From NCBI RefSeq assembly GCF_000422885.1, contig NZ_AUGX01000001.1, positions 249,238-313,237 of the forward strand: DNA of 64,000 bases, in the 5' to 3' direction. The notes under the pieces are model-generated. The model worked only from the letters and a program-made list of their open reading frames with translations. It made no database searches and was not told the DNA's origin. The translations under genes were made by a program, and so were the position numbers. The DNA is from Ottowia thiooxydans DSM 14619 (GTDB taxonomy: Bacteria > Pseudomonadota > Gammaproteobacteria > Burkholderiales > Burkholderiaceae_C). Below, one piece after another: positions 1-18,533 of this stretch. Position 1 is the first letter of the stretch. Each line of letters opens with the position of its first letter.

Positions 1-718
1 CGACGCCCCAGCCCAGGATGCCCAGGCCGTTGATCATGGTGGTGTGTGAGTCGGGGCAGACGACGGAGTCAGGGTGATAGATGCCATTGGTGCAAGAGAC
101 TCCTGTGGCGAGACGTTCCAGGTTGACTTGATGGCAGATGCCAATTCCTGGCGCGACCACGTTGACTCCGCGAAACGCACGCTCGCCCCACTTCAAGAAC
201 ATGAAGCGCTCGGCATTGCGCTCGAATTCAGTGGACATGTTGAGTGCCAGCGCCTGCTTGTTGCCCTGGTGATCAACTTGCACCGAATGGTCTACGACCA
301 GGTCCACAGGAACCTGCGGCTCTATAAGCGAGGCAGGCCAACCGTTGGCCTGAGCGGTATCCCGCATGGCTGCCAAATCTGCGATCAACGGAACGCCGTT
401 GAGATCCTGCAACAAGATCCTTGCCGGGACAAACGGTAGCTCTTGGGTTCGCGCGCCAGTGGGTGTCCAGCCACACAACGCACGGACATGCTCGGGAAGC
501 ACACGAATGCCGTCGCAGTGGCGTAGCATGGTCTCAAGCAGCATTCGAAGTGACACCGGCAAGCGTTCAATATGGCCCAGCCCCTGGTCCTGAAGCGCTG
601 CCAGGAGATGCATCTGACCTCCGGGCTCGGTTCCGGGGACCGAGAGCGGCCGAAGTGTGTTGAACGGGTCTACGAGCCGTTCGAGAGGACTCGTGGGTAG
701 TTTTTGTTGGGTAGTCAC
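1..718 (-). CDS. acnA: Aconitate hydratase (AcnA family), N-terminal part; cut by window edge
   Basis: Reading leftward from a GTG at 716-718, the frame stays open for 239 codons to the window edge. It gives an aconitase N-terminus with the stretches ARILLQDLNGVPLIADLAAM, DLVVDHSV, FLKWGERAF, GICHQVNLE and DSHTTMINGLG, all typical of the AcnA/IRP1 type (citrate to isocitrate through a [4Fe-4S] cluster). The cluster cysteines lie beyond the edge. A GGAGG sits 14 bases before the GTG, a long spacing, so the start is tentative. The usual VGTDSHT reads VCPDSHT here. Aconitase is certain; a specialised 2-methyl-aconitate role cannot be excluded. Confidence 0.88.
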   Translation of the reverse strand, partial: MTTQQKLPTSPLERLVDPFNTLRPLSVPGTEPGGQMHLLAALQDQGLGHIERLPVSLRMLLETMLRHCDGIRVLPEHVRALCGWTPTGARTQELPFVPARILLQDLNGVPLIADLAAMRDTAQANGWPASLIEPQVPVDLVVDHSVQVDHQGNKQALALNMSTEFERNAERFMFLKWGERAFRGVNVVAPGIGICHQVNLERLATGVSCTNGIYHPDSVVCPDSHTTMINGLGILGWGV

Positions 719-794
719 ACTACGAGAATAGTCCTCCACTCAAAGGAAATCTATTACGAATATTTGGGGTGATACTAAAGAAAAATTATGGATT

Positions 795-1676
795 TCAGCG
801 TTTGGTCAGCTTTCTCAGCTCCACCAAAAAGTCCTCTGTGGCGCGCGATCGCACCTGACCGTAGGGCGTCACGGCAACCACCACGAGTTGCTGCTTCGGA
901 CGCAGGGGGCGCGCAACCAGTCCGGCCGGGCGCATGGCAGCAAAGTAAAACGGCTCGACAATCCCAATGCCGGCGCCGCACTGCACCAATCGAATAGCGG
1001 TTAGCGTCTGCCCAACCTGCACGCCGATGTTGGGTACATGGCCCGAGCCGGAAAAGAGACGGTCTACCTTGCCGCGCAGGTTGTCCTGCGGGTCGTAGGT
1101 AACCAAGGATTCATGGGCCAAATCGGCAGGTGAAATCGTCTTTTTGCTTGCGAGGGGGTGCGCTTCAGGGAGCACACACATGAGCTCACCGGTAGTCACC
1201 TGTTCCACTTCTACCCCGTCGTGAGCCACCGGGCCATAGCAGACACCCACATCGAACTCGCGCGCAGCTACTCGGGCAATGAGTTCTGGAGTTTGGAGGG
1301 CTTGAAGCGTCACACAGACTTCAGGGCTTGCGCTTCGAATATGTGCGATGGCGTTCACCAGATGGCCCGTAGCCAGTGCCAATGTGCCTGCAACGGCAAG
1401 TTCGCCGCTTCGACCAGACGCCAGCGCCTTCGCGCGACGCGTGACGTGCTCGACACCGAGAAACACGGCGCGGATATCGGGAAACAAGCGCTCCACCTCA
1501 GGTGTGGGTTTCAGGCGTCCTCCAGCTCTTACGAACAGCGCGACGCCGAGCTGCGCTTCGCAATGCTGAAGTATGGTGCTGACCGAAGGCTGGGACACGT
1601 GCAGCAGCCTGGCTGCTTGCGTGATGGATCCCGTCTGGAGGATCGCGTGGAGAACTTCAAGTTGTCGGAGCTTCAT
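795..1676 (-). CDS. LysR-family transcriptional regulator
   Basis: This 293-residue protein has the LysR layout. An N-terminal winged helix-turn-helix (about residues 1-60, with TGSITQAARLLHVSQPSVS as recognition region) precedes a two-lobed effector domain. The N-terminus MKLRQLEVLHAIL is a normal LysR start. It lies 77 bases from the truncated aconitase and 43 bases from the next LysR gene, all leftward, and faces away from the catabolic run that begins at 2746. It may sense an intermediate of that cluster or control aconitase. The sequence does not identify the effector. Confidence 0.93.
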   Translation of the reverse strand: MKLRQLEVLHAILQTGSITQAARLLHVSQPSVSTILQHCEAQLGVALFVRAGGRLKPTPEVERLFPDIRAVFLGVEHVTRRAKALASGRSGELAVAGTLALATGHLVNAIAHIRSASPEVCVTLQALQTPELIARVAAREFDVGVCYGPVAHDGVEVEQVTTGELMCVLPEAHPLASKKTISPADLAHESLVTYDPQDNLRGKVDRLFSGSGHVPNIGVQVGQTLTAIRLVQCGAGIGIVEPFYFAAMRPAGLVARPLRPKQQLVVVAVTPYGQVRSRATEDFLVELRKLTKR

Positions 1677-1719
1677 AAGTTGCGGTTAGTTCGAGGATGA
1701 GGCCAAAACACTGAACGCT

Positions 1720-2655
1720 TCATGAAATCTCGTCTTGTTTGTTGAACAACTCGTGCATCGTTTCGCGAAACCATTTGCTCGCCGCATCATCGTGGAAGCG
1801 CTTATGCCAGTGCTGCCGTAAGCGAAACGTCGGTGACTTGAACGGCAGTGGATGTACTTCCAAGTCCTGCGACTTGTGGAAGAGCTGAACCACTTCCCGG
1901 GGCACGATAGCAATAAGGTCGGTTTGCGAAACAATCTCAAGAAGGCTCATGAAGCGCGAGACCTTGAGCGGAACGTAACGCTCAAGCTTGCGTTCCGCCA
2001 TATGTCGCAAAATGATCTCGCCGCTGCGGCCCGGTGTTGCGACATCCACCTGTGGCGCGCTCAGAAAGCGGCTCATGGTGAGTTTGCCGTTGACGTGAGG
2101 ATGGCCGGATCTGCTGATCACCACGAAGTGACTGGTGAAAAGTGCTTGCTGGATGAAGTCGGCGCCGATCAGATCGGGGTAGTGGCCCATCGCCAGATCG
2201 ATTTCTCCGGATGCCAATTGTTGTTCCAGAGCTTCGGGCGTGGGAGAGGCCACGCGCACCCGCAACCGAGGGCCAAACTTTTGGAGCGCCCCCACGATGC
2301 GGGGTACGAAGAAGGCTTCACCCACGTCACTTGTGGCAATGCAGAACTCCCGTTGAGACTTCGTGGGATCGAAGTTTGACGAACTCAAGAGGTCGGTGCG
2401 GATGCGCATCAGGACGTCGCGCACGGTGTCCTCCATAGCGAGAGCGCGCGGCGTGGGCTCCATACCCGAACTCACATGGACGAACAGTGGGTCCTCGAAG
2501 GCGAGGCGCATGCGCCGCAAGGCATAGCTTGCGGCGGGTTGACTCAGACCCAACTCTTTCCCGGCTGCCGTGACATTTCGGTGGCGCAGCAATGCCTCGA
2601 AGACGACCAGGAGGTTGAGGTCGAGTTGCCTGTTATCTATTATTTGGATCGTCAC
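1720..2655 (-). CDS. LysR-family regulator, NahR/NodD-like
   Basis: This is a LysR regulator of the NahR/NodD/LinR type. RQLDLNLLVVFEALLRHRNV leads into a helix-turn-helix with LSQPAASYALRRMR, followed by an effector domain. The frame is open up to an ATG at 2700, but that start has no ribosome binding site. A GTG at 2655 has GGAG six bases upstream and gives the usual length (311 aa), so I prefer it. The gene is divergent from the gentisate-pathway genes starting at 2746. NahR-type proteins activate aromatic catabolism, so it is the best candidate activator of that run. Confidence 0.9.
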   Translation of the reverse strand: MTIQIIDNRQLDLNLLVVFEALLRHRNVTAAGKELGLSQPAASYALRRMRLAFEDPLFVHVSSGMEPTPRALAMEDTVRDVLMRIRTDLLSSSNFDPTKSQREFCIATSDVGEAFFVPRIVGALQKFGPRLRVRVASPTPEALEQQLASGEIDLAMGHYPDLIGADFIQQALFTSHFVVISRSGHPHVNGKLTMSRFLSAPQVDVATPGRSGEIILRHMAERKLERYVPLKVSRFMSLLEIVSQTDLIAIVPREVVQLFHKSQDLEVHPLPFKSPTFRLRQHWHKRFHDDAASKWFRETMHELFNKQDEIS

Positions 2656-2679
2656 TATAAGCTCCATGTAATTGACGAA

Positions 2680-2699
2680 TGATCCAGCAAACTTGATCA
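2680..2699. promoter_or_regulatory. Possible LysR binding site in divergent promoter region
   Basis: The inverted repeat TGATC-N10-GATCA lies between the preferred LysR start (2655) and the flavoprotein start (2746). LysR proteins bind imperfect dyads with a T-N11-A core in such divergent gaps. The arms are only five bases long, so this is a weak candidate. Confidence 0.3.
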
Positions 2700-2745
2700 T
2701 CAGGCAACCAGTTTCCCGCTGCGTATATCAACAAACGGAGATTCC

Positions 2746-3993
2746 TTGAAAGCCGCGAAAGACAAACCAGTGATCGTTGCCGGTGGTGGCCTAGGTGGGC
2801 TCAGCGTGGCCCTCGCCCTGGGCCAGGCCGGGCATTGCGTTCAGGTACTTGAGCAAGCGCCAGAGATCGCACCGATCGGCTATGGCATCCAGTTGGGGCC
2901 CAACGTGCTGAAAGCTTTCAGCCAACTCGGGCTGGCTTCCATCGTCAAGGCAGCATGTGATTACCCGCAGTCTCTGGTGATGCCAGACGCTGAAAGCGGC
3001 GACGTGCTGCTGCGCATCCCGCTAAACGGAGAGGCGTACATCCAGCGATTTGGTGAGCCCTACATTGTCATCCACCGTTCGGCGATCCACGACATCCTGC
3101 TCGAAGCCTGCAGCAGACAAGAAGGAGTTGAGTTGATAGTCAACTCGCAGGTCGACAATTTCCGTGACGAAGGCGAAGACGGGGTGTCCGTTACAACCAC
3201 AGATGGGCGGCGATTCGAGGGCAGTGCACTGATCGGTGCGGATGGCGTCAAGAGTCGCATCCGCGCGTTGATTCAAGGTGAGACAGCCCCTCGCGATACA
3301 GGCTACGTAGCGCACCGTACGGTGATGCCGATGTCGCAAACGCCTGCTGGCCTGCCGCACTTGCAAGATGTGGTGTTGTGGTCTGGACCGGGTTACCACG
3401 TGGTGCACTACCCACTTAATCAAGGAACAGTGTTCAATGCGGTCGCTGTTTTTCGAAATCCTGCGCCAGGGGTAGAAGACCCAAAACAGTATGTCGCCCA
3501 AGTCCAGCAGGTTTATGGCGCAGCACATCCTTCGCTGAAGAAGGTGATTGAGCTGATGGACTTGCAAAAGCGATGGCCATTAGCAGACCGCGATCCATTC
3601 CGCACGTGGAGTTGCGGGCGCGTCACGCTGCTAGGCGATGCCGTTCATCCGACTTTACAGTCGTATGGGCAAGGTGCCGGGATGGCCGTTGAGGATGCTG
3701 TTTGCTTGGCCGGATTGGTGAACGACAGCGGCGGTGATTTTGAGAAGGCCTTTGCGGAGTACCCGAAGCGAAGGCTCGTTCGTAGCGCGCGCATTCAGCT
3801 TGGTTCACGCCACCTTTGGGAGTTCTACCACGCTGAAGGCATTGCCCGGGAAGTACGCAATGCCGAACTGAAAGAGCGCACGGATCAGAGCTTCTACGAC
3901 TGTCTATCCTGGATCTGGGATGGTGATCCGATGTCAGGAATGCCCTTGACTGTGCAGAAGTCTGATGGCCGTTCGGCGGAGGCTCTTGCATGA
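2746..3993 (+). CDS. FAD-dependent aromatic monooxygenase, probable 3-hydroxybenzoate 6-hydroxylase
   Basis: This 415-residue class A flavoprotein hydroxylase has the FAD dinucleotide motif at G13-x-G-x-x-G18 with the acidic E36. It also has the IGADGVKS motif near 163-170 and the FAD-ribityl GDAVHP motif at 297-302. Overall pattern and length match 3-hydroxybenzoate 6-monooxygenases (NagX/MhbM/XlnD type), which convert 3-hydroxybenzoate plus NAD(P)H and O2 to gentisate. Salicylate hydroxylase is the main alternative, but the next gene is gentisate dioxygenase, which supports the gentisate-forming assignment. The start is TTG with GGAG five bases upstream. The last four bases overlap the next gene (ATGA), suggesting coupled translation. 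Confidence 0.85.
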   Translation: MKAAKDKPVIVAGGGLGGLSVALALGQAGHCVQVLEQAPEIAPIGYGIQLGPNVLKAFSQLGLASIVKAACDYPQSLVMPDAESGDVLLRIPLNGEAYIQRFGEPYIVIHRSAIHDILLEACSRQEGVELIVNSQVDNFRDEGEDGVSVTTTDGRRFEGSALIGADGVKSRIRALIQGETAPRDTGYVAHRTVMPMSQTPAGLPHLQDVVLWSGPGYHVVHYPLNQGTVFNAVAVFRNPAPGVEDPKQYVAQVQQVYGAAHPSLKKVIELMDLQKRWPLADRDPFRTWSCGRVTLLGDAVHPTLQSYGQGAGMAVEDAVCLAGLVNDSGGDFEKAFAEYPKRRLVRSARIQLGSRHLWEFYHAEGIAREVRNAELKERTDQSFYDCLSWIWDGDPMSGMPLTVQKSDGRSAEALA

Positions 3994-5027
3994 CGACCAC
4001 CGGCATTGCACCTGACCGCTTCAGACAGCAGTTGTCGGCGCTGAATGCGGCACCGCTCTGGGATGTGCTGGCCACCCTGGTTCCTCCGCAACCCCGGAGC
4101 AACGCAGTGCCAAATGTATGGCGCTGGGCTCAGTTGCGGCCACAGCTATTGGCTGCTGGTGAACTCATCAGTGCCGAAGAAGCGGAACGCCGGGTTCTGA
4201 TGTTGTGCAACCCCGGAATTGTTGGGCGCCGTCAGGTCACTGACACGCTTTATGCCGGACTGCAACTTATTCATCCAGGTGAGTCAGCCAGAGCCCACCG
4301 GCACAGTCAGTCAGCACTGAGGTTTGTTCTGGAAGGCGAGGGCGGCTTCACCTCTGTCGATGGCCTGCGCGCCGATATGCGACGGGGGGACTTCATCGTG
4401 ACGCCCTCCTGGAAATGGCACGATCACGGTAACGATGGCGATGGTCCGGTCATGTGGCTGGATGGACTGGACGTACCACTGGTCAGTTTTTTGCAGGCAG
4501 GGTTTCGGGAAGAGCACGAAGCCGTTCGATTTCCCGCTCGCGGTAGTGCCGAGCAGGTGTTCCACCGCTACGGCAACGGGCTGCTTCCGCTGGAGCGCCG
4601 AGATGCGGGCTCAACTTCTCCCATCTTTAGCTATCCCTACGAGCGCACGCGCGAATCGTTGGAGCAACTGGTCAGCGCGGGGGAAATTGATGAGTACCGA
4701 GGAGCGGTGGTGCGTTATGCCAATCCGCTGAATGGCGATTGGGCAATGCCTTCAATCGGGGCATGGATGCAATGTTTACCGAAGCGCTGGAAGCCGCTCC
4801 ATACACGTTCTACCGATAGCGTTGTGCTGACTGTTGTCGAGGGAACGCCCACCATCGAAATTGATGGTGAGGTGCCGGTCTTGCTTCAACCCAACGATGT
4901 TTTTGTGGTGCCTGGATGGCGGCGCTGGCGAGCTCTCGCAGGAGACACAGAGGATGCGGTGATATTCGCGTACTCGGACCGCCCCGTGCATGAGAAGCTA
5001 GGTTTGTATCGCGAACAACTCGGATAA
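3990..5027 (+). CDS. Gentisate 1,2-dioxygenase
   Basis: This 345-residue bicupin protein opens the gentisate ring between C1 and C2 to give maleylpyruvate, using Fe(II) and O2. The N-terminal cupin shows the metal ligands H103, H105 and H144 (motifs AHRHS and WKWHDHGNDG), at the spacing expected for gentisate dioxygenases. A second degenerate cupin lies around 265-335. It overlaps the 3-hydroxybenzoate hydroxylase gene by four bases and is followed 25 bases later by an FAH-family hydrolase. Salicylate dioxygenases belong to the same family, but the adjacent hydroxylase favours gentisate. Confidence 0.92.
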   Translation: MTTTGIAPDRFRQQLSALNAAPLWDVLATLVPPQPRSNAVPNVWRWAQLRPQLLAAGELISAEEAERRVLMLCNPGIVGRRQVTDTLYAGLQLIHPGESARAHRHSQSALRFVLEGEGGFTSVDGLRADMRRGDFIVTPSWKWHDHGNDGDGPVMWLDGLDVPLVSFLQAGFREEHEAVRFPARGSAEQVFHRYGNGLLPLERRDAGSTSPIFSYPYERTRESLEQLVSAGEIDEYRGAVVRYANPLNGDWAMPSIGAWMQCLPKRWKPLHTRSTDSVVLTVVEGTPTIEIDGEVPVLLQPNDVFVVPGWRRWRALAGDTEDAVIFAYSDRPVHEKLGLYREQLG

Positions 5028-5052
5028 ATAATTTAGAAAAGGAACTTGGTTC

Positions 5053-5907
5053 ATGAAAGTCTGTCGTTTCAATGAAAACCGCATCGGTATTATTAAAGAC
5101 AACGAGGTCTATGACATTACGCCGCTGTTTGATCGCTTCGGAAAGCCCGGTTGGCCTTACCCTGCGTATGACTGGATCATTGGGAATTTTGGTGAAATTC
5201 GCAATGAGATTGATGGATTTTTGCCTTCAGTTAAGGCACTTGCCTTGGCCGATGTCACATTACGCGCGCCGGTAGCAAATCCTGGGAAAATCATTGGCGC
5301 GCCGGTGAATTACAAGGATCATATCGATGAAGCGAATATAGATAAGCAGATCAACCACGGTAAGCAATACACCTCCATGGATAAGTTGGGGTTGTTCATT
5401 AAAGCTCCAACTTCGCTGTTGGGGCCAGATGGTGTGGTGCAAATTCCGTTCGCCGATAGAAGAACAGACCATGAGGTCGAGCTGGGTGTCATCATTGGAA
5501 AGCAATGCCGCAGGGTTTCTCGTGACCAAGCGCTTGACTACGTTTTTGGGTATTGCATTGCACTTGACATGACGGTGCGTGGTCCTGAGTTTCCGGGATT
5601 TAGAAAGTCAGCAGATACATTCGGGGTAATAGGCCCCTGGATCACGACTGCTGACGAAATTCAAGATCCTAATGCCTTGGATTTTTCGATTTCAGTTAAC
5701 GGTGAAGTTCGGCAAAAATCAAATACAAGTTATCTGATTTTCAATGTTCAACATTTGATTGAATACGCGTCAGCAATGTATACGCTGATGCCTGGAGATG
5801 TCATCATGACGGGCACCCCAGCTGGAGTGAGTCCGGTGCAGCCGGGTGACCGTATGTTGTCCGTTATTCAGGGGCTGGGGGAAATGTCGATCGACATTGC
5901 AAATTAA
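5053..5907 (+). CDS. FAH-family hydrolase, probable maleylpyruvate/fumarylpyruvate hydrolase
   Basis: This 284-residue fumarylacetoacetate-hydrolase-fold protein has the family blocks IGAPVNYKDH (81-90), HEVELGVIIG (140-149, with metal-binding E141 and E143), a downstream acidic residue at D172 and IMTGTPAGVSPVQPGD near the C-terminus. After gentisate cleavage it would split maleylpyruvate directly, or fumarylpyruvate after isomerisation, to pyruvate and maleate or fumarate. No maleylpyruvate isomerase is seen in the window. The gene is strikingly AT-rich beside its neighbours: 18 G/C of 60 bases at 5701-5760. This suggests separate acquisition. Confidence 0.86.
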   Translation: MKVCRFNENRIGIIKDNEVYDITPLFDRFGKPGWPYPAYDWIIGNFGEIRNEIDGFLPSVKALALADVTLRAPVANPGKIIGAPVNYKDHIDEANIDKQINHGKQYTSMDKLGLFIKAPTSLLGPDGVVQIPFADRRTDHEVELGVIIGKQCRRVSRDQALDYVFGYCIALDMTVRGPEFPGFRKSADTFGVIGPWITTADEIQDPNALDFSISVNGEVRQKSNTSYLIFNVQHLIEYASAMYTLMPGDVIMTGTPAGVSPVQPGDRMLSVIQGLGEMSIDIAN

Positions 5908-5948
5908 TAAATAATCGATAAATTTTCTGAGCTTCAGGAGACAATGTA

Positions 5949-6950
5949 ATGAATCGATCAAATCAAAAACAGCACGTAATTCGGCGTCGGGTTGTACTAT
6001 CCGCCGCACTTTCGGCCGCTTTGGGGTCCGCGGGTCTGGTCCACGCAAATACGAAGTACCCGTCGGGGCCAATCAGCGTTGTTGTGGGGGGGCCACCAGG
6101 CAGTTTGTCGGATACCTTGTCGCGCTTTTTTGCCCTGAAGCTCAGTGAAGCCTTATCAGAGAAGGTGTTTGTAGAAAACAAGCCAGGAGCGAATGGCATG
6201 TTGGCTGCAGGCGCAGTGGCCAAAGCGGCGCCAGATGGCCGTTCACTGTTCTTGACTCCGGACACCGTGATGGTGGTTAATCAGTTTGTCTACCAACGGT
6301 CTCCGTACAACGTGGAGACGGATTTCCAGCCAATTGCACTATTGGGGAAGGTGTCGGTCGTGCTGGTCACGCACCCGAAGAGCGGGATCAAAACCCTGGA
6401 CCAGTTGGTTCAGCGGGCCAAGTCCAAGCCCCAATCCGTAACCTATGCGTCTGGTGGCTCCGCGCACCCAACGCATTTGATCATGGCCATGACCGCTAAT
6501 CGTCTAGGTTTGCAGATGACCCATGTGCCTTACAAGGGCACATCCCCGGGCCTGCAAGGAGTGATGGCGGGTGATGTCGATGCCATGGTGATTGGTTCCG
6601 CCGAAGCAGTGCCTCTCATCGAAAGCGGGCGCTTGGTATTGCTTGCCGCCAGTGGACCTGGAGCGAAGGAGCGCTTCCCCACAGTTCCTTTGCTGAGGGA
6701 TGCGCACCGTGACCTTGACTTGACATCGTGGTTTGCGATTTTTGGCCCGGCTGGTCTTCCGCCCGAAACTGTGAGCACCTTGAACACCGAGTTGAATAAA
6801 GTTCTTCGCTCTCCGGAGGCTAAAGCGCGGTTGGCAGAGTTTCACATGTTGCCATTGCCTGGTGCTCCAGATGAGGTGCAAAAAATGATGCAAGCCGAGC
6901 GACTCAAGTACCGCGAACTTGTAGAGGCCATTGGCTTGAAAGTGGATTGA
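5949..6950 (+). CDS. Bug/TctC-family periplasmic substrate-binding protein
   Basis: This 333-residue extracytoplasmic binding protein belongs to the Bordetella uptake gene (tripartite tricarboxylate) family. An RRR-containing, alanine-rich signal peptide ends near VHA-NTKYPSG. The mature part has the family opening PISVVVGGPPG and the features VENKPGANG and THVPYKGTSPG. Family members bind carboxylates or aromatic acids. No TctA/TctB membrane partners are adjacent, which is common for orphan Bug proteins. Its place behind the gentisate genes suggests it binds their substrate. A 148-base AT-rich gap follows. Confidence 0.93.
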   Translation: MNRSNQKQHVIRRRVVLSAALSAALGSAGLVHANTKYPSGPISVVVGGPPGSLSDTLSRFFALKLSEALSEKVFVENKPGANGMLAAGAVAKAAPDGRSLFLTPDTVMVVNQFVYQRSPYNVETDFQPIALLGKVSVVLVTHPKSGIKTLDQLVQRAKSKPQSVTYASGGSAHPTHLIMAMTANRLGLQMTHVPYKGTSPGLQGVMAGDVDAMVIGSAEAVPLIESGRLVLLAASGPGAKERFPTVPLLRDAHRDLDLTSWFAIFGPAGLPPETVSTLNTELNKVLRSPEAKARLAEFHMLPLPGAPDEVQKMMQAERLKYRELVEAIGLKVD

Positions 6951-7098
6951 GTAATCGTTTTGAGTATCCGTTTGGTATGAATGGATGGCTGCCTTTTCTC
7001 TGAACGAACCGTTTTCTTCTCGTCTGGTGAAGATGTTGTATTGAAGTTCTGATATCAAAATGTCTTTGATTTTTTTCTAGAAATGAACAAGAGACTCA

Positions 7099-7896
7099 AT
7101 GAGCCAACCGCCCACATCAAACAGTAAAGACAAGCTCGTTCACTTCGATATGCGGGGCTCAGTTGCGGTCATTCGTCTGAGCCGGCCAGCCAAGCGTAAC
7201 GCGTTGAGCGACAAGCTCATCTTCGCTCTGCGCGACGTTTTCCAGAATCTACCGGCCGAAGCGCGCGCCGCCGTCATCCACGGCGAAGGCGAACATTTCT
7301 GTGCCGGCCTGGATTTATCTGAACTGCAGGAACGCGATGCAGGAGCAGGCGTACACCACTCACGCTCGTGGCATAACGCGCTAACCCAGGTGCAGGAAGG
7401 CCCGGTGCCGGTGATCGCCGCGTTGCACGGTGCGGTGGTGGGCGGGGGCTTGGAGTTGGCCAGTGCCTGCCACATCCGCGTGGCCGACGAGACCACATTT
7501 TTTGCACTCCCTGAAGGCACTCGTGGCATCTTTGTGGGTGGCGGCGGCTCGGTGCGCATCCCCAAGCTGATCGGTGTGGCGCGCATGACCGACATGATGC
7601 TGACCGGCCGTGTCTACAACGCTGCGGACGGCGAGCGTGTGGGCTTGGCGCAGTACCTTGTGCCCGCGGGCACGGCGCTGGACAAGGCACTGGCGCTGGC
7701 CACGCAAATTGCCACCAACGCGCCATTGACAAACTACGCGCTGATGCACGCACTGCCGCGCATCGCCGAGCAGTCTGCTGACCACGGCTTCTTTACTGAA
7801 GCGCTGATGGCCTCCATTGCCCAGGCCACACCTGAAGCCAAGGAGCGCGTGCGCGCATTCCTGGAAGGCAAGGCCGCCAAGGTGCAGAAGGGATGA
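7099..7896 (+). CDS. Enoyl-CoA hydratase/isomerase (crotonase family)
   Basis: This 265-residue crotonase-fold protein has oxyanion-hole segments HFCAGLDL (66-73) and GAVVGGGLEL (111-120). Both catalytic acid/base glutamates of hydratases appear present: E119 in GGGLEL and E139 in ALPEGTRG. The predicted role is hydration of the 2,3-double bond of an aryl-propenoyl-CoA to the 3-hydroxyacyl-CoA. Feruloyl-CoA hydratase/lyases are also crotonases, but the dehydrogenase and thiolase downstream suggest full beta-oxidation rather than retro-aldol cleavage. It is the first gene after an AT-rich 148-base gap and probably starts a transcription unit. Confidence 0.9.
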   Translation: MSQPPTSNSKDKLVHFDMRGSVAVIRLSRPAKRNALSDKLIFALRDVFQNLPAEARAAVIHGEGEHFCAGLDLSELQERDAGAGVHHSRSWHNALTQVQEGPVPVIAALHGAVVGGGLELASACHIRVADETTFFALPEGTRGIFVGGGGSVRIPKLIGVARMTDMMLTGRVYNAADGERVGLAQYLVPAGTALDKALALATQIATNAPLTNYALMHALPRIAEQSADHGFFTEALMASIAQATPEAKERVRAFLEGKAAKVQKG

Positions 7897-7930
7897 AGCC
7901 GGGTCAACGTAGAAAATTCCAGGAGACAAG

Positions 7931-9799
7931 ATGAGCACTCCCGCCTTCCGACCGATGGCCTTTGGTGTAACCACCGCCGTGTTGCGCGACGGCCCCAATG
8001 GCACGCACTACCTGCGCGCTGACCAAGAACTGCAGCCCTATAAAAATCGCCTGACAGACCTCCTGCGCCATTGGGCCGAAACCGTCCCCGACCGTACCTG
8101 GATGGCACGTCGTCAGCCTATCGTGGGTGTTGACGGCAAACCCGCACTGGGTGAGTGGCGCCACATCAGCTACGCAGAGGCATGGGCTACAGCACGCCGC
8201 ATTGCTCAAGGCCTGATCAACCGAGGGCTCAGCGCTGAGCGCCCGGTGGCCATATTGTCTGAAAACAGCCTTGAGCATGCGCTTTTGGCTTTGGGTTGCA
8301 TGGTGGCGGGTGTTCCTCATGTGCCTGCTTCCCCCGCGTATTCGCTGATCAGCACCGATTACGAAAAGCTCAAGCACGTGCTGCGCACCACCACACCCGG
8401 GATGCTGTTTGCCAGTGACGCCACTCTCTATGGCAAGGCCCTGCACGCCGTCGCCAGTGATGGTGTGGAAATCGTGTTGGCACAAGGCCGCCTTGAAGGT
8501 TTGGATAGCACCAGCTTCGCCGAACTGGCCGGAACGCCGGAAACGCCCGACGTGGATGCGGCCATCTCCGCTACAGGGCTGGACACCATCACCAAGTTTC
8601 TCTTTACCAGCGGGTCCACGAAACTGCCGAAGGCTGTCATCAACACGCAGCGTATGTGGTGTGCCAATCAGCAGCAGGCAGCGCAATCCATGCCCGTTGT
8701 GGCAGAGCAACCCCTGGTGCTGTTGGACTGGCTGCCCTGGAATCACACTTTCGGGGGCAACCACAACTTCGGAATGGTGATCTACCAAGGCGGTACGTTG
8801 TACATCGACGATGGCAAACCTACGCCTGCACTGATGCACGAGACCTTGCGCAACCTGCGCGAGATTGCGCCAACCGTGTACTTCAACGTGCCCATAGGCT
8901 TTGAGGCCATCGCCAATGCGATGAAGACCGACGACTTGCTGCGCAAGACGCTGCTGTCACGTGTGAAGATGTTTTTCTACGCCGGAGCGGCGCTGGCGCA
9001 GCCCGTGTGGGACAGCCTGTACGAGAGTGAGGAGCGTGAGATTGGCCAGCGCGTCGTCATGGCGTCCGGGCTGGGCATGACGGAGTCTGCACCGTTTGGC
9101 CTGTTTGTGACCAGCCCCAATGTGAGGGCGGGTGATTTGGGTTTACCCACTCCGGGGTTGGAGCTCAAGCTAGTAGATGTGGATGGCAAGACCGAGGTGC
9201 GCTTTCGCGGTCCCAACATCACCCCAGGTTACTGGCGCGCACCCCAGGAAACCGCGGATGCCTTCGACGAGGAGGGCTTCTTCAAGACGGGTGATGCAGT
9301 GAAGTGGATCGATGAGACCGATGTCCATCTCGGGTTGAAGTTCGACGGGCGCATCGCCGAGGACTTCAAGCTTGCTACCGGCACTTTCGTGAGCGTGGGC
9401 CCTATGCGCGCAAGGATCATTGCCGCAGGCGCTCCCTACATCCAGGACGTGGTGCTGACTGGCCTGAACTTGAAGGAGGTGGGTGCCATGGTTTTTCCTA
9501 CGCCCAAGGTGCGCGAGCTGGCAGGTCTGCCAGCGGATGCGTCCTTCCACGATGTATTGGAGAGCGCACCAGTGCTGGCCTACTTCCAGAACCTGGCTAA
9601 CGAGCTTGCCAAGACAGCGACAGGCAGCGCCAACCGAATCGCGCGCCTATGCCTGTTGGCCGATCTGCCCACTATCGACCGTGGCGAGATCACCGACAAG
9701 GGCTCTATTAACCAGCGCGCGGTGCTTACACACCGGGCTGATACCGTGGCCGCTCTGCACGAGGACCGGTTGCACCACATCGTCAAGCCTCAGCACTGA
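7931..9799 (+). CDS. Acyl-CoA synthetase of the feruloyl-CoA synthase family
   Basis: This 622-residue ANL-superfamily ligase has the phosphate-binding loop LFTSGSTKLPKAVINTQR (224-241), GLGMTES for adenylation, the FCS-specific block DGRIAEDFKLATGTFVSVGP in place of the usual hinge, and a C-terminal EITDKGSINQR with the likely catalytic lysine. This matches feruloyl-CoA synthases, which activate hydroxycinnamates with ATP and CoA. The loop carries K where most ligases have G. A ribosome binding site (AGGAGA) lies just before the ATG, and the gene is 34 bases after the hydratase. The substrate is probably a hydroxyaryl-propenoate. Confidence 0.9.
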   Translation: MSTPAFRPMAFGVTTAVLRDGPNGTHYLRADQELQPYKNRLTDLLRHWAETVPDRTWMARRQPIVGVDGKPALGEWRHISYAEAWATARRIAQGLINRGLSAERPVAILSENSLEHALLALGCMVAGVPHVPASPAYSLISTDYEKLKHVLRTTTPGMLFASDATLYGKALHAVASDGVEIVLAQGRLEGLDSTSFAELAGTPETPDVDAAISATGLDTITKFLFTSGSTKLPKAVINTQRMWCANQQQAAQSMPVVAEQPLVLLDWLPWNHTFGGNHNFGMVIYQGGTLYIDDGKPTPALMHETLRNLREIAPTVYFNVPIGFEAIANAMKTDDLLRKTLLSRVKMFFYAGAALAQPVWDSLYESEEREIGQRVVMASGLGMTESAPFGLFVTSPNVRAGDLGLPTPGLELKLVDVDGKTEVRFRGPNITPGYWRAPQETADAFDEEGFFKTGDAVKWIDETDVHLGLKFDGRIAEDFKLATGTFVSVGPMRARIIAAGAPYIQDVVLTGLNLKEVGAMVFPTPKVRELAGLPADASFHDVLESAPVLAYFQNLANELAKTATGSANRIARLCLLADLPTIDRGEITDKGSINQRAVLTHRADTVAALHEDRLHHIVKPQH

Positions 9800-9910
9800 T
9801 TTTCCCCTGCCGGCTTCGGCGTCAAGCAGGTGTCATGTGGTCACAAGGGCTTGGCCCCACGGTAACTATGACGCTAACACTCATGTTGGCAGGAATCGAC
9901 CAGGTTCTCC

Positions 9911-11167
9911 ATGAAAGTTGAAATGAAAGACAACGGTTTCTTCAATCTATTTAATGACGTCGTGATACTCGACGGGGTCCGCACTCCGATGGTCGACTAC
10001 TGCGGCGCCCTCGGTCACATCTCTCCTACCGACCTGGGCATCAAGGCTGCGCGGGCCGCACTGGCCCGCGCTGATGTGCCGGCGGAACATATCGGTTCGG
10101 TGGTCACGGGCAATATGTCGCCCGGAGATTTCGACCAGTTCTTCCTGCCGCGGCACATCGGCCTGTACGCGGGCGTGCCGCTGGAGGTGCCGGCCATCAT
10201 GGCGCAGCGCATCTGCGGGACGGGATTTGAGCTGTTCCGCCAGGCCGGTGAACACATCCAGGGCTGCGCCTGCGAGGCCGTGCTGGTGGTGGGCACCGAG
10301 AGCATGACCCGCAATCCTATCGTCGCTTTCGACCATCGGACCGGCTTCAAGCTGGGCGCGCCGGTGGGTTTCAAGGACTATCTGTGGGAGGCGCTTCAAG
10401 ACCCCGCTGCCGGAATCAACATGATCCAGACGGCAGAGAATCTAGCCAAGAAGTACGGTATTACCCGCGAGGAGGTGGACGCCTTCGCATCCAGCTCCTT
10501 TGCCAAGGCTGTCGCAGCGCAGGAAAGCGGTTTTCTGGCTGGAGAGATCGTGCCCGTGGTCACCGAGAAGTTCGAGTTGGAAGGCTACAAGCCGCGTGGA
10601 ATCCGGCTGCAGGGCAAGGCCACCGAATTGGCCACCGACACCCACGCTCGCCTTTCTCCGGTGGAGGTACTGGCCAAGCTCAGACCCGTCTATGAAGGTG
10701 GCGTACAGACCGGTGGCAATAGCTCGGCCTTGGTGGATGCAGCTGCAGCTGCGGTGGTCGCATCGGGCGCGTATGCCAAGACCTACGGCAAGAAACCACT
10801 GGCACGTGTGGTGGCTGCCGCCGTCGTGGGTGTGCCGCCCGAGATCATGGGCATCGGGCCGGCGCCAGCCATCCGCCTGCTGCTGTCGCGCTGCGGGCTG
10901 ACGCTAGACCAGATCAGCCGCTTCGAGATCAACGAGGCCCAAGGCGCGCAAACCCTTGCTGTCGGGCGCGAATTAGGGCTGGATCTGTCCAAACTCAACG
11001 TCAATGGCGGCGCCATCGCGCTTGGTCACCCTCTGGCCGCCACGGGCGTGCGACTGACCATCACCTTGGCGCGTGAGCTGCGCCGAAGCCAGCAGCGCTG
11101 GGGCATTTCAAGTGCGTGCGTGGGCGGCGGGCAGGGCATTGCGCTGCTGATTGAGAACCCCCAATAA
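9911..11167 (+). CDS. Thiolase (acetyl-CoA C-acyltransferase family)
   Basis: This 418-residue thiolase has the acylated cysteine C102 in QRICGTG, the active-site N341 in INEAQ, H373 in NGGAIALGHPLAATG and the second catalytic cysteine C403 in CVGGGQG. The family NEAF motif reads NEAQ, a change beside the catalytic asparagine that may reflect an unusual, bulky acyl group. The predicted reaction is CoA-dependent cleavage of 3-aryl-3-oxopropanoyl-CoA to aroyl-CoA and acetyl-CoA. The reading frame begins MKVEMKDNG; an internal start at MKDNG is possible. It sits between the CoA ligase and the SDR gene. Confidence 0.92.
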   Translation: MKVEMKDNGFFNLFNDVVILDGVRTPMVDYCGALGHISPTDLGIKAARAALARADVPAEHIGSVVTGNMSPGDFDQFFLPRHIGLYAGVPLEVPAIMAQRICGTGFELFRQAGEHIQGCACEAVLVVGTESMTRNPIVAFDHRTGFKLGAPVGFKDYLWEALQDPAAGINMIQTAENLAKKYGITREEVDAFASSSFAKAVAAQESGFLAGEIVPVVTEKFELEGYKPRGIRLQGKATELATDTHARLSPVEVLAKLRPVYEGGVQTGGNSSALVDAAAAAVVASGAYAKTYGKKPLARVVAAAVVGVPPEIMGIGPAPAIRLLLSRCGLTLDQISRFEINEAQGAQTLAVGRELGLDLSKLNVNGGAIALGHPLAATGVRLTITLARELRRSQQRWGISSACVGGGQGIALLIENPQ

Positions 11168-11179
11168 GGAGCTGATCAA

Positions 11180-11965
11180 ATGATTATTCAAGGACAAGCA
11201 GCACTGGTCACCGGCGGCGGCTCCGGCCTGGGTGAAGCCACTGCACGCGAACTAGCCCGCCAGGGCGCCAAGGTTGCTGTGCTCGATATCAACATGGACA
11301 ACGCTCGGCGCGTGGCCGACGCCATCATTGCTGCGCACGGCACTGGCACTGCACTGGCTGTGGAGTGCGATGTGACCAATGGCGATAGCGTGCAGGCGGC
11401 CATAGACGCCGCGGCCGTAGCCCATGGCTCGGCACGCATTCTCATGCAGATTGCCGGCATCGGAAGCGCCAGGCGCATCATCGCCAAGGACGGCAGCCCC
11501 GCCCCACTGGAAGACTTTGTCCGCGTGGTCAACGTCAATCTCGTTGGCACTTACAACGTGGCCCGCCTGTTCGCGGCAGCCTGCGCCAAGGCCGAGCCTA
11601 TGGCAGACGGCGAGCGTGGAGTCATGGTGTTTACCGCGTCTGTGGCGGCGTTCGACGGCCAGGTGGGTCAGCAGGCCTACAGCGCCTCCAAGGGCGGGGT
11701 AGTGGGCATGACGCTGCCCATGGCGCGTGACCTGTCGCAACATGGCATCCGCGTGTGCACCGTGGCGCCAGGCCTCTTTGCTACCCCGCTGATGAACACC
11801 TTGCCTGAATCGATACAGGCATCGCTGGCTGCCAGCATCCCTTTCCCTAAGCGGCTGGGTAAGCCCGAAGAGTTTGCAGAACTCGCTTGCCATGTGGTGA
11901 CCAACGGCCACCTCAACGGCGAGGTGATCCGCCTGGACGGCGCGCTGCGCCTGGCGCCTCGTTGA
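11180..11965 (+). CDS. Short-chain dehydrogenase, probable 3-hydroxyacyl-CoA dehydrogenase
   Basis: This 261-residue classical SDR has the cofactor loop TGGGSGLG (11-18), D36 after the second strand (typical of NAD preference), catalytic S154, Y167 and K171 (YSASK), and a substrate loop ending in NGEVIRLDGALR. It resembles the type-II 3-hydroxyacyl-CoA dehydrogenases (HSD17B10-like) often found in beta-oxidation gene sets. It would oxidise the 3-hydroxyacyl-CoA made by the hydratase to the 3-oxo form for the thiolase. The usual NNAG segment reads QIAG. It lies 12 bases after the thiolase and 12 before the thioesterase, clearly one operon. Confidence 0.92.
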   Translation: MIIQGQAALVTGGGSGLGEATARELARQGAKVAVLDINMDNARRVADAIIAAHGTGTALAVECDVTNGDSVQAAIDAAAVAHGSARILMQIAGIGSARRIIAKDGSPAPLEDFVRVVNVNLVGTYNVARLFAAACAKAEPMADGERGVMVFTASVAAFDGQVGQQAYSASKGGVVGMTLPMARDLSQHGIRVCTVAPGLFATPLMNTLPESIQASLAASIPFPKRLGKPEEFAELACHVVTNGHLNGEVIRLDGALRLAPR

Positions 11966-11977
11966 AAGACTAAGCCA

Positions 11978-12400
11978 ATGAGCAAGACTGTGGTGTACGA
12001 AGTGAATGTGATGTTCGGCGATTGCGACCCGGCCGGCATTGTTTTCTTTCCCAACTTCTCGAAGTGGATGGACGCCTCGTCTCTGAACTTCTTCGTCACG
12101 TGTGGTGTTCCGCCCTGGCGTGAGTTGGTCAAGACGCGTGGCATCGTTGGCACGCCGCTGTTGGAGATTCATACCAAATTCATGCGTCCGGCCACCTATG
12201 GCGAACGCTTGCAAGTGCATACCAGTGTCATCGAATGGCGCGAAAAGGTGTTCATCCAGAAGCATGTTGTCAAGCGAGGCGAGGAGGTGCTCTGCGAGGG
12301 CACAGAGACGCGCGCTTTTGTCGTGCACCCGCCCGAGAACCCCGATCGCATCAAGGCCATTCCCATACCCGAGGACATTCGCGCCAAGTGCGGTGGTTGA
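11978..12400 (+). CDS. Hydroxybenzoyl-CoA thioesterase (4HBT hotdog fold)
   Basis: This 140-residue hotdog-fold thioesterase contains FGDCDPAGIVFFPNF, with catalytic D17 at the same position as in Pseudomonas 4-hydroxybenzoyl-CoA thioesterase. It also shares CGVPPWRE, RGIVGTP and a downstream EWREKVFIQ-type strand with that enzyme. The expected product is free hydroxybenzoate plus CoA. In context it would release the aroyl group left by the thiolase, most simply 3-hydroxybenzoate for the hydroxylase at 2746. The length is normal for the family. It could alternatively hydrolyse the 3-oxoacyl-CoA. Confidence 0.92.
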   Translation: MSKTVVYEVNVMFGDCDPAGIVFFPNFSKWMDASSLNFFVTCGVPPWRELVKTRGIVGTPLLEIHTKFMRPATYGERLQVHTSVIEWREKVFIQKHVVKRGEEVLCEGTETRAFVVHPPENPDRIKAIPIPEDIRAKCGG

Positions 12401-12449
12401 TTCCCCGCGAGACCACTTTCCCCCTCAACTAACTTAGGAGACAAAGCCC

Positions 12450-13604
12450 GTGAAAACCATAAAGACCATACAAGCTATCCGAACTCTCTTGGCTGTTACG
12501 GTGGCAGCGCTGGCCGCCACAGCCGCGCAAGCCGACATCAAGGTGGGTGTCGTCCTTTCGCTCACCGGCCCTGGTTCCAGCCTGGGAATTCCGATGAACA
12601 ACCAGCTCAAGCTGTTCGCCAAGACCATTGCTGGTGAAAACGTTCAGCTTTTCATACTCGATGACGCCACAGACCCCGGAAAGGGAGCGGCCAACACGCG
12701 CCGCTTGGTAACCGAGGACAAGGTGGACATCATCCTCGGCTCCACCATCACTCCAGTGGCCGCTGCGATGTCGGTCATTACCGCTGAGGCAGGTACCGTT
12801 CAACTGGCTCTGAGCCCTGTGATTTTGCCCCCCGGCAAGGACAAGTGGCTGTTCCGTATGCCTCAGTCCAGCGCGGTGATGGCGTTTCCCATGGTCGAGC
12901 ATATGCGCAAGCAGGGCGTCAAGACCCTGGGCTTCCTGGGCTACGCTGATGCTTATGGCGAACAGTGGCTTCAGGATTTAACTCCGCTGTTGACCAAGGC
13001 CGGTATCAAGATTGTGGCTACCGAGCGCTTCGCACGCACCGACTCAAGTGTGGCCCCGCAGGCGCTGAAACTGACTACAGCCAACCCCGACGCAGTATTG
13101 GTCGTGGCCACGGGAACTGGCGCCGCCATGCCCCACGTTGCCATGGTTGATCGTAACTACAAGGGCAAGATCTACCAGACTCACGCAGCCGTCACACAAG
13201 ACCTGATGCGCGTTGGCGGCAAGGCCGTGGAGGGCGCATTCGTGGTCTCGGGCCCCACTGTGCTTGCTGAGCAACTGCCTGATACGCACCCTTCAAAAGC
13301 AGTGGCTGTAGATTTCGTGCAGAAGTACGAGAAGGCTTATGGGCCTAACTCTCGAAATCCCTTTGCAGGCCAGATCTACGATGTGCAAGTGGTGCTGGAA
13401 AAGGCAGTGCCTATGGCGCTTAAAAAAGCCAAGCCGGGCACACCTGAGTTTCGCGCCGCGCTTCGTGACAGCATAGAAACCATGGGCCGAACCATCCTGT
13501 CATGGGGCGTTATGAACTGGACACCCACCGATCACTGGGGCTACACCAGCGAAACTGGGGTGATGCTGAAGATCGTGGACGGTAAGTTCAAGGTCGAGCA
13601 ATAA
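12450..13604 (+). CDS. Liv-type ABC transporter periplasmic binding protein
   Basis: This 384-residue type I periplasmic binding protein of the LivJ/LivK family starts at GTG with TAGGAGA upstream. A signal peptide ends near AAQA-DIKVG (about residue 29). The mature part shows the family pattern VGVVLSLTGPGSSLGIP, then TRRLVTEDKVDIILGS and later the hinge motifs of these proteins. In aromatic degraders such proteins bind hydroxycinnamates, benzoates and similar acids. It starts a five-component importer (12450-17248) directly behind the CoA-pathway genes. Confidence 0.93.
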   Translation: MKTIKTIQAIRTLLAVTVAALAATAAQADIKVGVVLSLTGPGSSLGIPMNNQLKLFAKTIAGENVQLFILDDATDPGKGAANTRRLVTEDKVDIILGSTITPVAAAMSVITAEAGTVQLALSPVILPPGKDKWLFRMPQSSAVMAFPMVEHMRKQGVKTLGFLGYADAYGEQWLQDLTPLLTKAGIKIVATERFARTDSSVAPQALKLTTANPDAVLVVATGTGAAMPHVAMVDRNYKGKIYQTHAAVTQDLMRVGGKAVEGAFVVSGPTVLAEQLPDTHPSKAVAVDFVQKYEKAYGPNSRNPFAGQIYDVQVVLEKAVPMALKKAKPGTPEFRAALRDSIETMGRTILSWGVMNWTPTDHWGYTSETGVMLKIVDGKFKVEQ

Positions 13605-13703
13605 GTTTTTGTTTCGAGTTCAGCCGCGCCAAGTTCGTCTGCGCCCCGGTGGCCAGGCCACGCCGGCGCGGTTCCTTTTCTCCTGAAAGACCAAAACCAT
13701 CCC

Positions 13704-14744
13704 ATGGACTTCACGATCGCCAGCATCCTCTTTTTGGACGGCGTAACCAATGGCGCCGTCTATGCGTTGCTGGGCCTTGCCACGGTGCTCGTGTTCACCG
13801 TCACGCGCATCATCTTCATTCCGCAGGGCGAGTTTGTCGCTTATGGGGCTCTCACCCTCGCCATGTTGCAAAGTGGCAAGACGCCGGGTACGGTTTGGTT
13901 GTTGCTCATTGTGGCTGGCGTTGCGGCCGCTATGGAGTGGGTGTCCCGCTTCCGGCATCACGGCCACGCCGGCCATGCCACCCGTTCCGCACTCAAAACG
14001 TTGATGGCCCCTGTGGCCGTGTCGTTACTCACTATGTGGGCCGCACCGCAACAGTGGCCACTGGTGGCACAGGCCTTGTTGTCTGTGGCGGTGGTTACGG
14101 CCTTTGGTCCGCTGGTCTATCGTGTGGCGTATCAGTCGCTTGAAGACGCCACGCCGCTGGTGCTGCTGATTGTGTCGGTAGGCGTGCATTTCGCCATGAC
14201 TGGCCTGGGCCTGCTGTTCTTCGGTGCCGAGGGTTTCCGCAACCCTAGCTTCTGGAATTACCGGGGCCAGTTTGGCCCGCTCACCCTGAGCGGTCAGACC
14301 ATCATCATCGGGCTGAGCACGGTGGCGCTGATCGTGCTGTTTTACCTGTACTTCGAGCGTTCGTTCAAGGGCAAGGCACTGCGTGCCACCGCGGTCAACC
14401 GTACCGGTGCGCGCCTGATGGGTATTTCGACCCACAGCTCTGGCCAGCTCACGTTCACCATGGCCGCGCTGTTAGGTGCGCTCTCGGGCTTGCTGATCGG
14501 CCCCACCACCACGTTGTACTACGACTCGGGGTTCCTGATCGGTCTGAAGGGCTTCGTTGCTGCTGTGATGGCTGGCTTGTCCAGCTACCCTGGTGCACTC
14601 ATCGGTGCGCTGTTTGTGGGCATCGTTGAATCCTTCGGTTCGTTCTGGGCAAGCGCTTTCAAGGAAGTGATCGTGTTCACGCTGATTTTGCCAGTCCTAT
14701 TGATCCGCTCCATCACCAGCAGGCATTCCGGTGAGGATCACTGA
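13704..14744 (+). CDS. livH: ABC transporter permease, LivH type
   Basis: This 346-residue inner-membrane permease begins [20 protein letters not shown], the usual LivH opening, and ends with a run of hydrophobic segments including [20 protein letters not shown]. It is about 50 residues longer than typical LivH. The extra part is an insert around residues 75-125 containing a histidine-rich stretch (RHHGHAGHA). It would form half of the membrane channel of the importer. It is followed immediately by the LivM-LivG fusion gene, which starts just after its stop codon. Confidence 0.91.
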
Positions 14745-14745
14745 A

Positions 14746-16512: not shown

Positions 16513-16513
16513 C

Positions 16514-17248
16514 ATGAGCACCCCACTTCTTCGCATCCAGCAACTGCGCGCAGGTTATGGCCGGGCAGAGGTATTGCATGGCATTGATCTGCACGCAGAC
16601 AAGGGCAGCGTGATCACCGTCATCGGCCCTAACGGCGCCGGAAAGTCCACCCTCCTCAATAGCATGATGGGCCTGCTGCCCTCCAAGGGCCTGGTCGAAT
16701 ACGAAGGCGAGGACATTGGCACGCTCACCCTGGAAGAGCGCGTGATGCGCGGTATTGCCCTGGTGCCGGAAAAGCGCGAACTGTTCGGCACTATGCCGGT
16801 AGAAGACAATCTGGTGCTGGGCGGCTACCGGCAGATGCGCCTGGGCAACGCCCAGTGGCGTTCACGCCTGGACGATGTGTATGCGTTGTTCCCGCGGCTG
16901 AAGGAGCGCCGCACTCAGTTGGCCGGCACACTCTCAGGCGGTGAACGCCAGATGTTGGCGGTGGGCCGATCTCTGATGTCGGGTCCGCAGGTGCTGATGC
17001 TGGATGAGCCCAGCCTGGGTTTGGCACCGCTGATCGTGAAAGAGATCTTTTCCATCATCACGACCCTGCGCCAAACCGGCGTGACCATCGTGCTGGTGGA
17101 GCAGAATGCGCGCGCCGCGCTGGCAGTTGCCGACCATGGTTACGTGCTGGAAATGGGCGAACTGAGCCTACAAGGCCCGGCGGCCGAGTTGGCGCAAGAC
17201 GCACGTGTCATCGATACCTACCTGGGTGCCACCAGGAAGCCGGATTAG
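16514..17248 (+). CDS. livF: ABC transporter ATP-binding protein, LivF type
   Basis: This 244-residue ATPase has Walker A GPNGAGKSTLLNS, the signature LSGGERQMLAVGR, Walker B QVLMLDEPSLGL, and the C-terminal LVEQNARAAL segment typical of LivF. It starts one base after the LivM-LivG stop and closes the first importer. The downstream 230 bases (17249-17478) carry no gene I can support and lead to a LysR regulator. Confidence 0.94.
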   Translation: MSTPLLRIQQLRAGYGRAEVLHGIDLHADKGSVITVIGPNGAGKSTLLNSMMGLLPSKGLVEYEGEDIGTLTLEERVMRGIALVPEKRELFGTMPVEDNLVLGGYRQMRLGNAQWRSRLDDVYALFPRLKERRTQLAGTLSGGERQMLAVGRSLMSGPQVLMLDEPSLGLAPLIVKEIFSIITTLRQTGVTIVLVEQNARAALAVADHGYVLEMGELSLQGPAAELAQDARVIDTYLGATRKPD

Positions 17249-18432: not shown

Positions 18433-18533
18433 CGGGAGCGTTGAACGAGTCATCGGTTTGAGTGATGGGTGACATCCATTTAAATCGCTTTTTCTGAGTT
18501 GTCCCGCTGACTAGTATTGCGGTCATTCAGAAA

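Follow-up and report, generated by a model that had tools for sequence, protein, structure and literature searches.

The DNA examined here is a window of 64,000 nucleotides from Ottowia thiooxydans DSM 14619 (contig NZ_AUGX01000001.1), and the system in question is a run of catabolic genes at positions 2746-12400. Named relatives from Variovorax, Limnohabitans and Ramlibacter suggest a betaproteobacterium, probably one of the Comamonadaceae. The original prediction read this run as a complete candidate route from a hydroxyaryl-propenoate to gentisate ring cleavage, and the genes that it named are all present as intact open frames in a single orientation, at the coordinates in Table 1. Beyond that list, we found an FAH-family gene, a TctC/Bug-type receptor gene and the genes of an ABC transporter. 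The run comprises a gentisate unit (monooxygenase, dioxygenase and FAH-family hydrolase behind a divergent LysR-type regulator) and a downstream CoA unit (crotonase, acyl-CoA ligase, thiolase, short-chain dehydrogenase (SDR) and 4HBT thioesterase). It is a fusion of two modules that occur separately elsewhere: the combination is new and the parts are known. The monooxygenase and dioxygenase frames overlap by 4 nt, and from the dioxygenase to the ABC receptor the successive gaps measure 25, 41, 148, 34, 111, 12, 12 and 49 nt, those above 100 nt lying between the Bug receptor and the crotonase and between the ligase and the thiolase. The real start of the regulator may lie farther downstream than its listed ATG.

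Table 1. Features of the gene run and its flanks (positions in the window).
Feature	Coordinates	Strand	Evidence and remarks
LysR-type regulator of gentisate unit, divergent	1720-2700	-	Pfam HTH_1 and LysR_substrate
Regulator-monooxygenase region	2560-2745		Overlaps listed 5' end of regulator; block ATTGACGAAT common to L184 and L185
3-Hydroxybenzoate 6-hydroxylase-like FAD monooxygenase	2746-3993	+	TTG start; NF006021, 395 bits; best solved relative 4bjy
Gentisate 1,2-dioxygenase-like bicupin	3990-5027	+	TIGR02272, 425 bits; best solved relative 2d40
FAH-family hydrolase, probably maleylpyruvate hydrolase	5053-5907	+	Pfam FAA_hydrolase; best solved relatives 6jvv/6jvw
TctC/Bug-type periplasmic receptor	5949-6950	+	Pfam TctC
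148-nt gap before crotonase, 36% GC	6951-7098	+	Without the palindrome of close relatives
Crotonase (enoyl-CoA hydratase family)	7099-7896	+	NF006013; best solved relatives 3hin, 4izb
Feruloyl-CoA-synthase-type acyl-CoA ligase	7931-9799	+	NF009232, 721 bits
Thiolase (acetyl-CoA C-acyltransferase family)	9911-11167	+	TIGR01930, 357 bits (cut-off 240.55)
SDR, presumed 3-hydroxyacyl-CoA dehydrogenase	11180-11965	+	Pfam adh_short
4HBT hotdog thioesterase	11978-12400	+	Closest to 4-hydroxybenzoyl-CoA thioesterase 1bvq, E 8.6e-36
Branched-chain-type ABC transporter	12450-17248	+	Pfam
ABC receptor	12450-13604		
ABC permease	13704-14744		
ABC permease-ATPase	14746-16512		
ABC ATPase	16514-17248		

The monooxygenase scores 394.9 bits on NF006021 (3-hydroxybenzoate 6-monooxygenase), below the curated cut-off of 459; judged by its sequence, it is a protein like 3-hydroxybenzoate 6-hydroxylase (3HB6H) and is not filed as a family member. 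Its best solved relative, 4bjy (E 5.6e-69), is deposited as a probable salicylate monooxygenase, and we take it to be the 3HB6H of Rhodococcus jostii. Tyr105, His213 and Gln301 of 4bjy, positions taken from the mutant chains 4bk3, 4bk1 and 4bk2, respectively, are kept in the window protein; the Gln301 column is not kept in 6-hydroxynicotinate 3-monooxygenase (8uiq). The dioxygenase likewise scores below its curated cut-off (425.3 against 442.1 bits, TIGR02272), aligns to 2d40 with E 2.2e-104 and contains two Cupin_2 stretches, as expected of a bicupin. The FAH-family protein matches the maleylpyruvate hydrolase 6jvv, presumably HbzF, over its full length (residues 1-283, E 1.8e-63) and ahead of other FAH proteins (next 1gtt, 4.9e-45), which suggests a direct hydrolysis of maleylpyruvate to maleate and pyruvate. 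Direct hydrolysis of this kind is described for HbzF of Pseudomonas alcaligenes NCIMB 9867 in an excerpt of PMC5658364. The HbzF gentisate system and the window share a 3HB6H-type monooxygenase, a gentisate dioxygenase and a protein like maleylpyruvate hydrolase, but in the window these form a compact LysR unit of three enzymes. Two maiA-type isomerases score above cut-off elsewhere in the genome, leaving room for the glutathione route. GC content is 45% at 5001-6000, around the FAH gene, against 59% and 56% in the adjoining 1-kb windows, perhaps a mark of mixed origin.

The gentisate unit also exists without the CoA unit. In genome G056 (locus L124) the divergent LysR, monooxygenase, dioxygenase and FAH proteins are 73, 68, 75 and 78% identical to those of the window, and the monooxygenase there scores 401.5 bits on NF006021. 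Further copies were found in Pseudomonas jinjuensis (L184), in Paraburkholderia sp. CNPSo 3274 (L185) and in the metagenome-assembled genome PBB3 (L186), where the regulator stands at the opposite end and only 305 bases are present upstream of the monooxygenase. The LysR copies beside the unit are 73% (L124), 61% (L184) and 68% (L185) identical to that of the window. No match to the CoA-unit ligase or crotonase occurs in the fetched stretches of these four loci. The contig scan for relatives of the unit used two peptide patterns, so that relatives can be missed; four of its eight loci matched at 58% or more, and one of these, L191, is truncated where its contig ends. Among 369 genomes of the class, a search at E 1e-120 with at most four candidates scored per genome returned only the genome of the window. 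That genome holds a second gentisate cluster on contig C36 (L126), in which a monooxygenase with 679 bits on NF006021 and a TIGR02272 relative with 279 bits lie side by side, as in the window. This cluster differs in that its 3HB6H exceeds the NF006021 cut-off and its FAH protein is short (232 amino acids); the only CoA-unit match in its 19-kb stretch is a ligase-like gene (23% identical).

Within the CoA unit, the crotonase is well above its cut-off (NF006013, 422 against 232 bits) and keeps both Glu positions of 3hin and 4izb, which we take to be the catalytic pair of hydratases. The ligase reaches 721 bits on NF009232 (feruloyl-CoA synthase type), below the curated cut-off of 777, close to the 719 bits of the genome's own core copy. 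Its plasmid-borne relatives, 46-50% identical, are annotated as feruloyl-CoA synthases; one of them (50%), on a plasmid of Terrarubrum flagellatum, stands behind a crotonase with a MarR gene nearby. The genes named in the original prediction are real, and two of its labels, those of the monooxygenase and the ligase, fit more loosely than it claimed. It had also pointed to Asp17 of 4-hydroxybenzoyl-CoA thioesterase in the 4HBT protein as support for an aroyl-CoA intermediate. The residue is there: Asp at position 17 aligns with Asp17 of 1bvq, a protein of the same length with another gene neighbourhood (the deposited 1lo9 chain has Asn at this place). It is not diagnostic, because it is also kept in the more distant thioesterase 5wh9 and the closest plasmid-borne thioesterases sit in a different setting, and we discarded it as evidence for an aroyl-CoA. 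On each of two plasmids, from Paraburkholderia largidicola and Caballeronia sp. NK8, such a thioesterase (56.5 and 55.8% identical) is encoded away from any ligase locus of this kind, and a divergent gene for a 3-keto-5-aminohexanoate cleavage protein stands at a distance of about 2.4 kb. The thioesterases are found at about 4800-10200 of L216 and L217, each followed by an SDR gene and with divergent genes for Crp/Fnr, MFS, beta-keto-acid cleavage and 3-hydroxyacyl-CoA dehydrogenase proteins; we presume that this setting may serve a carnitine-type catabolism.

A ligase match at E 1e-100 occurs in 73 of 120 family genomes, that of the window included. We compared the window with 71 loci, namely 59 from as many of the 72 other matching family genomes, 11 from 10 other genomes of the genus and the genome's own core copy; 56 of the 71 stretches span at least 18 kb. 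Genomes G009, G030, G045, G048, G076, G083, G086, G098, G104, G107, G108, G115 and G116 were not fetched, and second and third ligase places of the fetched genomes were left out. L129, which covers the locus of L054, was not counted, nor were the non-ligase stretches L039, L124-L127 and L141-L143. With tblastn floors of 80 bits for the dioxygenase and the 4HBT protein, 100 for the monooxygenase, 150 for the SDR and 200 for the thiolase, all 71 loci have the crotonase with the ligase, 48 have the SDR, 36 the 4HBT protein, 31 the thiolase and 19 all five; thiolase and 4HBT are both unmatched in 27. Loci picked by the ligase contain the crotonase in every case, so these frames do not stand together by chance, and the CoA unit is a conserved locus of the family. 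The window unit retains its crotonase and ligase pair, and comparator loci carry copies of its thioesterase that are 61-88% identical. Neighbouring clusters, each named after one scanned member, include MarR (53/71), amidohydrolase (35/71), acyl-CoA dehydrogenase (23/71) and GrpE (20/71). Moreover, the ABC receptor recurs at 33 and the first permease at 22 of the 71 loci, so that transporter genes accompany the CoA unit in some relatives.

The variable content of these loci bears on a different chemistry, in which the crotonase would be a hydratase/lyase that yields hydroxybenzaldehyde and acetyl-CoA, with thiolase and SDR as accessories and the aldehyde oxidised elsewhere. Crotonase and ligase stand without a thiolase, SDR or 4HBT match in 11 of the 71 loci and with the SDR alone added in 16, and on an Acinetobacter plasmid the neighbours of a related ligase are a hydratase/lyase and an aldehyde dehydrogenase. 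The window crotonase, however, keeps both Glu of 3hin and 4izb and is followed by thiolase, SDR and thioesterase genes, and no aldehyde dehydrogenase is found among the genes of 2746-17248. We consider the lyase chemistry improbable here.

The genome has a core copy of the CoA unit on contig C2 (L038), which makes that of the window a second copy. The core copy has a ligase 68% identical to that of the window and stands beside MarR, FKBP, GrpE and DnaK genes, and within it the SDR is unmatched. A tree of 72 ligase rows places the window in a 17-row clade (support 100/99) from which its own genus is absent. The core copy belongs to a clade of 11 rows (100/98), together with 10 of the 11 genus rows; the long-branched L140 is placed elsewhere. 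The tree shows the relationship of the window ligase to other genera, and the unit as a whole probably came from another genus of the same family.

The window copy also appears to have lost a regulatory site. The palindrome RTTATN5ATAAY stands before the crotonase in 39 of 72 upstream regions (window included) exactly and in 50 with at most one mismatch, the pattern having been derived from the same regions in which it was counted; a first version with a 6-base spacer had the wrong spacing, and the sequences gave the 5-base form. In simple shuffles the best match is exact in 0.0% and has one mismatch in 1.4%. Among comparators with a ligase identity of at least 60%, 49 of 50 have the palindrome within one mismatch. 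Upstream of the window crotonase the best match has three mismatches, as in shuffles; the two matches within one mismatch in the whole window, at 5089 and 62339, compare with 1.0 expected by chance. Furthermore, no MarR-cluster gene is present among the 29 genes called in 1-30000. An inverted repeat in the gap, ATCAAA-N5-TTTGAT at 7054-7070, lies 28 nt before the crotonase start, near the place of the relatives' palindrome; it was rejected since an equally good repeat arises in 25.8% of 1000 gap shuffles and it is thus not above chance.

Comparison with known systems suggests what was lost. We take couAB of Rhodopseudomonas palustris and fer of Sphingobium SYK-6 to be MarR-regulated hydroxycinnamate loci. 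The cou genes of Rhodococcus jostii RHA1 are MarR-regulated and pair an acyl-CoA ligase with a crotonase, as in the window, and inverted repeats act as MarR operators at such genes (both in the excerpted text of PMC4737184). The family relatives share with these loci the MarR gene and the palindrome before the crotonase, which would be the operator of the linked MarR protein; the window copy, in contrast, has neither and stands behind a gentisate unit. Loss of this presumed switch fits a transfer of the CoA unit to the gentisate promoter, and from the missing palindrome and MarR gene it would follow that expression comes at least partly from a promoter before the monooxygenase. Promoter-like matches lie there at 2615-2643 and 2672-2700, in a scan whose total is not above chance. 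A simple scan found no promoter-like match and no plus-strand terminator-like match in the 148-nt gap, and a simple palindrome scan did not establish a LysR box common to this gap and the regulator-monooxygenase gap.

The route that these genes could encode begins with the uptake of a hydroxycinnamate, most simply m-hydroxycinnamate, and its activation by the ligase. Hydration by the crotonase, oxidation by the SDR and cleavage by the thiolase would give acetyl-CoA and hydroxybenzoyl-CoA, from which the 4HBT enzyme would release 3-hydroxybenzoate. The monooxygenase would convert this to gentisate, the dioxygenase would open the ring, and the FAH enzyme would split maleylpyruvate into maleate and pyruvate, with read-through from the promoter before the monooxygenase into the CoA unit. 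Candidate enzymes are present for every step: activation, hydration, dehydrogenation, thiolysis, thioester hydrolysis, ring hydroxylation and ring cleavage. There is precedent for the side-chain part, since p-hydroxycinnamates undergo beta-oxidative deacetylation in RHA1 (excerpt of PMC4737184), and thioesterase release of 4-hydroxybenzoate after beta-oxidation of 4-coumaroyl-CoA has been proposed for Comamonas serinivorans (excerpt of PMC6307125). Because the two modules lie apart elsewhere and are joined here, and because the presumed switch is lost, we favour a compound catabolic run in which the gentisate unit and a hydroxycinnamate-type CoA unit from another genus act as one joined pathway, a proposition that we hold to be about evenly balanced. 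In such a pathway the compound that links the units would have to be an acid accepted by the monooxygenase. The meta position, which follows from the likeness of the monooxygenase to 3HB6H by way of 3-hydroxybenzoate as the intermediate, is less probable than that. A single transcription unit, each of the substrates and the meta position are what we infer from the arrangement. Of the side-chain-to-gentisate route that the original prediction proposed, the enzyme set and the joining of the modules thus hold, and the missing palindrome adds to them; its meta-hydroxy substrate is an expectation drawn from enzyme likeness.

Several observations weigh against one joined pathway. At columns invariant among the other rows, the crotonase (43 rows) and the thioesterase (18 rows) have no unique substitution, and the ligase has 6 (18 rows, highest row 10), the thiolase 4 (23 rows, highest row 9) and the SDR 2 (36 rows, highest row 4); nothing in these counts points to adaptation to a new substrate. 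Three enzymes, the monooxygenase, dioxygenase and ligase, do not reach the scores set for their curated families. The palindrome is present in only one of 21 more distant comparators and is also lost in L159 of the close group, none of them fused, and its loss is therefore possible without fusion. The 148-nt gap could hold a promoter missed by the simple scan, in which such matches are overall at or below chance. The fusion itself was found in no second genome examined (family comparators, contig scan and 369 class genomes), so no selection for it is shown.

Among the 71 loci, the fetched stretch of just one, L128 (genome G061, contig C35), has a gentisate dioxygenase match, which lies about 7.8 kb away from the ligase; no other comparator locus shows such a co-location. 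Over 1-18487 this stretch carries a CoA unit and, within about 8-15 kb, a different gentisate cluster of dioxygenase, FAH, monooxygenase and GST genes. We do not count it as independent support, as it is one locus of 71 and of a different type (monooxygenase 35-42%, dioxygenase 37% identical). A 3HB6H-like monooxygenase (40% identical) also lies about 10 kb from the CoA unit at 11137-12216 of L129 (G035, contig C30), beyond a DnaJ gene and outside the counted stretch L054. Titles and abstract openings listed in an open-access library yielded no paper on this combination of modules. According to an excerpt of PMC6460240, Alcaligenes aquatilis QD168 grows on 3-hydroxycinnamate and 3-hydroxybenzoate, and its authors identified no genes for either pathway.

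The same evidence can be read as two neighbours that form no common pathway, their adjacency an accident of insertion. The CoA unit would then be a p-coumarate/ferulate side-chain unit whose 4-hydroxybenzoate or vanillate passes to protocatechuate through PobA or Van enzymes encoded elsewhere, and the gentisate unit would serve external 3-hydroxybenzoate. VanA proteins are present in 4 of the 71 comparator stretches: in L042 and L154 they directly adjoin the CoA unit, accompanied by a VanB-like reductase, and in L046 and L163 they are about 7 kb off. Judged by such neighbours, the family locus is probably a hydroxycinnamate locus with vanillate among its products. The genome has two pobA genes above cut-off, through which a para product could pass without the gentisate genes. 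The resemblance of the CoA-unit enzymes to those of relatives and the single occurrence of the fusion point the same way. Yet all genes of the window unit are still open although it lacks the palindrome and the MarR partner, and the genome already holds a MarR-linked copy. We give this account somewhat less than an even chance.

A para-type unit, to judge by the neighbours of its relatives, also leads to the thought that the monooxygenase takes another product, either salicylate from o-coumarate or 4-hydroxybenzoate with carboxyl migration, with ortho- or para-hydroxycinnamate as the entry compound. On NF006021 it scores 395 bits and the 3HB6H of contig C36 scores 679, a distance in keeping with this; the retention of Tyr105, His213 and Gln301, 4bjy as best solved relative and the occurrence of the gentisate unit elsewhere without the CoA unit speak against it, and we regard it as very unlikely. 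To the particular version in which a para-type unit and a carboxyl-migrating 4-hydroxybenzoate hydroxylation would carry p-coumarate to gentisate and maleate instead of protocatechuate, we attach scarcely any weight.

Downstream of the run, the genes at 17479-26846 resemble a cluster for ketone-to-ester catabolism: a LysR regulator, a Baeyer-Villiger-type monooxygenase extended at its N terminus, an alpha/beta hydrolase, a second ABC transporter of the branched-chain type and one more LysR regulator. Among 20 genes scanned in the 28-64 kb part of the window are FecR and TonB receptor genes (30628-34303), an Mrr-type restriction endonuclease (49276-50205) and a further crotonase (56602-57444) with a family III CoA-transferase (58500-59723) and a GntR regulator (59730-60470) nearby.

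If the two units are merely neighbours, this is an ordinary catabolic neighbourhood. If instead they form one joined pathway, the locus would be a snapshot of route building, with two existing modules set head to tail, one of which lacks the regulator site that its relatives have. It would provide an aerobic meta-hydroxycinnamate route via gentisate and maleate, and the genome would hold paralogous pairs of ligase, crotonase, thiolase and thioesterase in which ring-position specificity could be compared.

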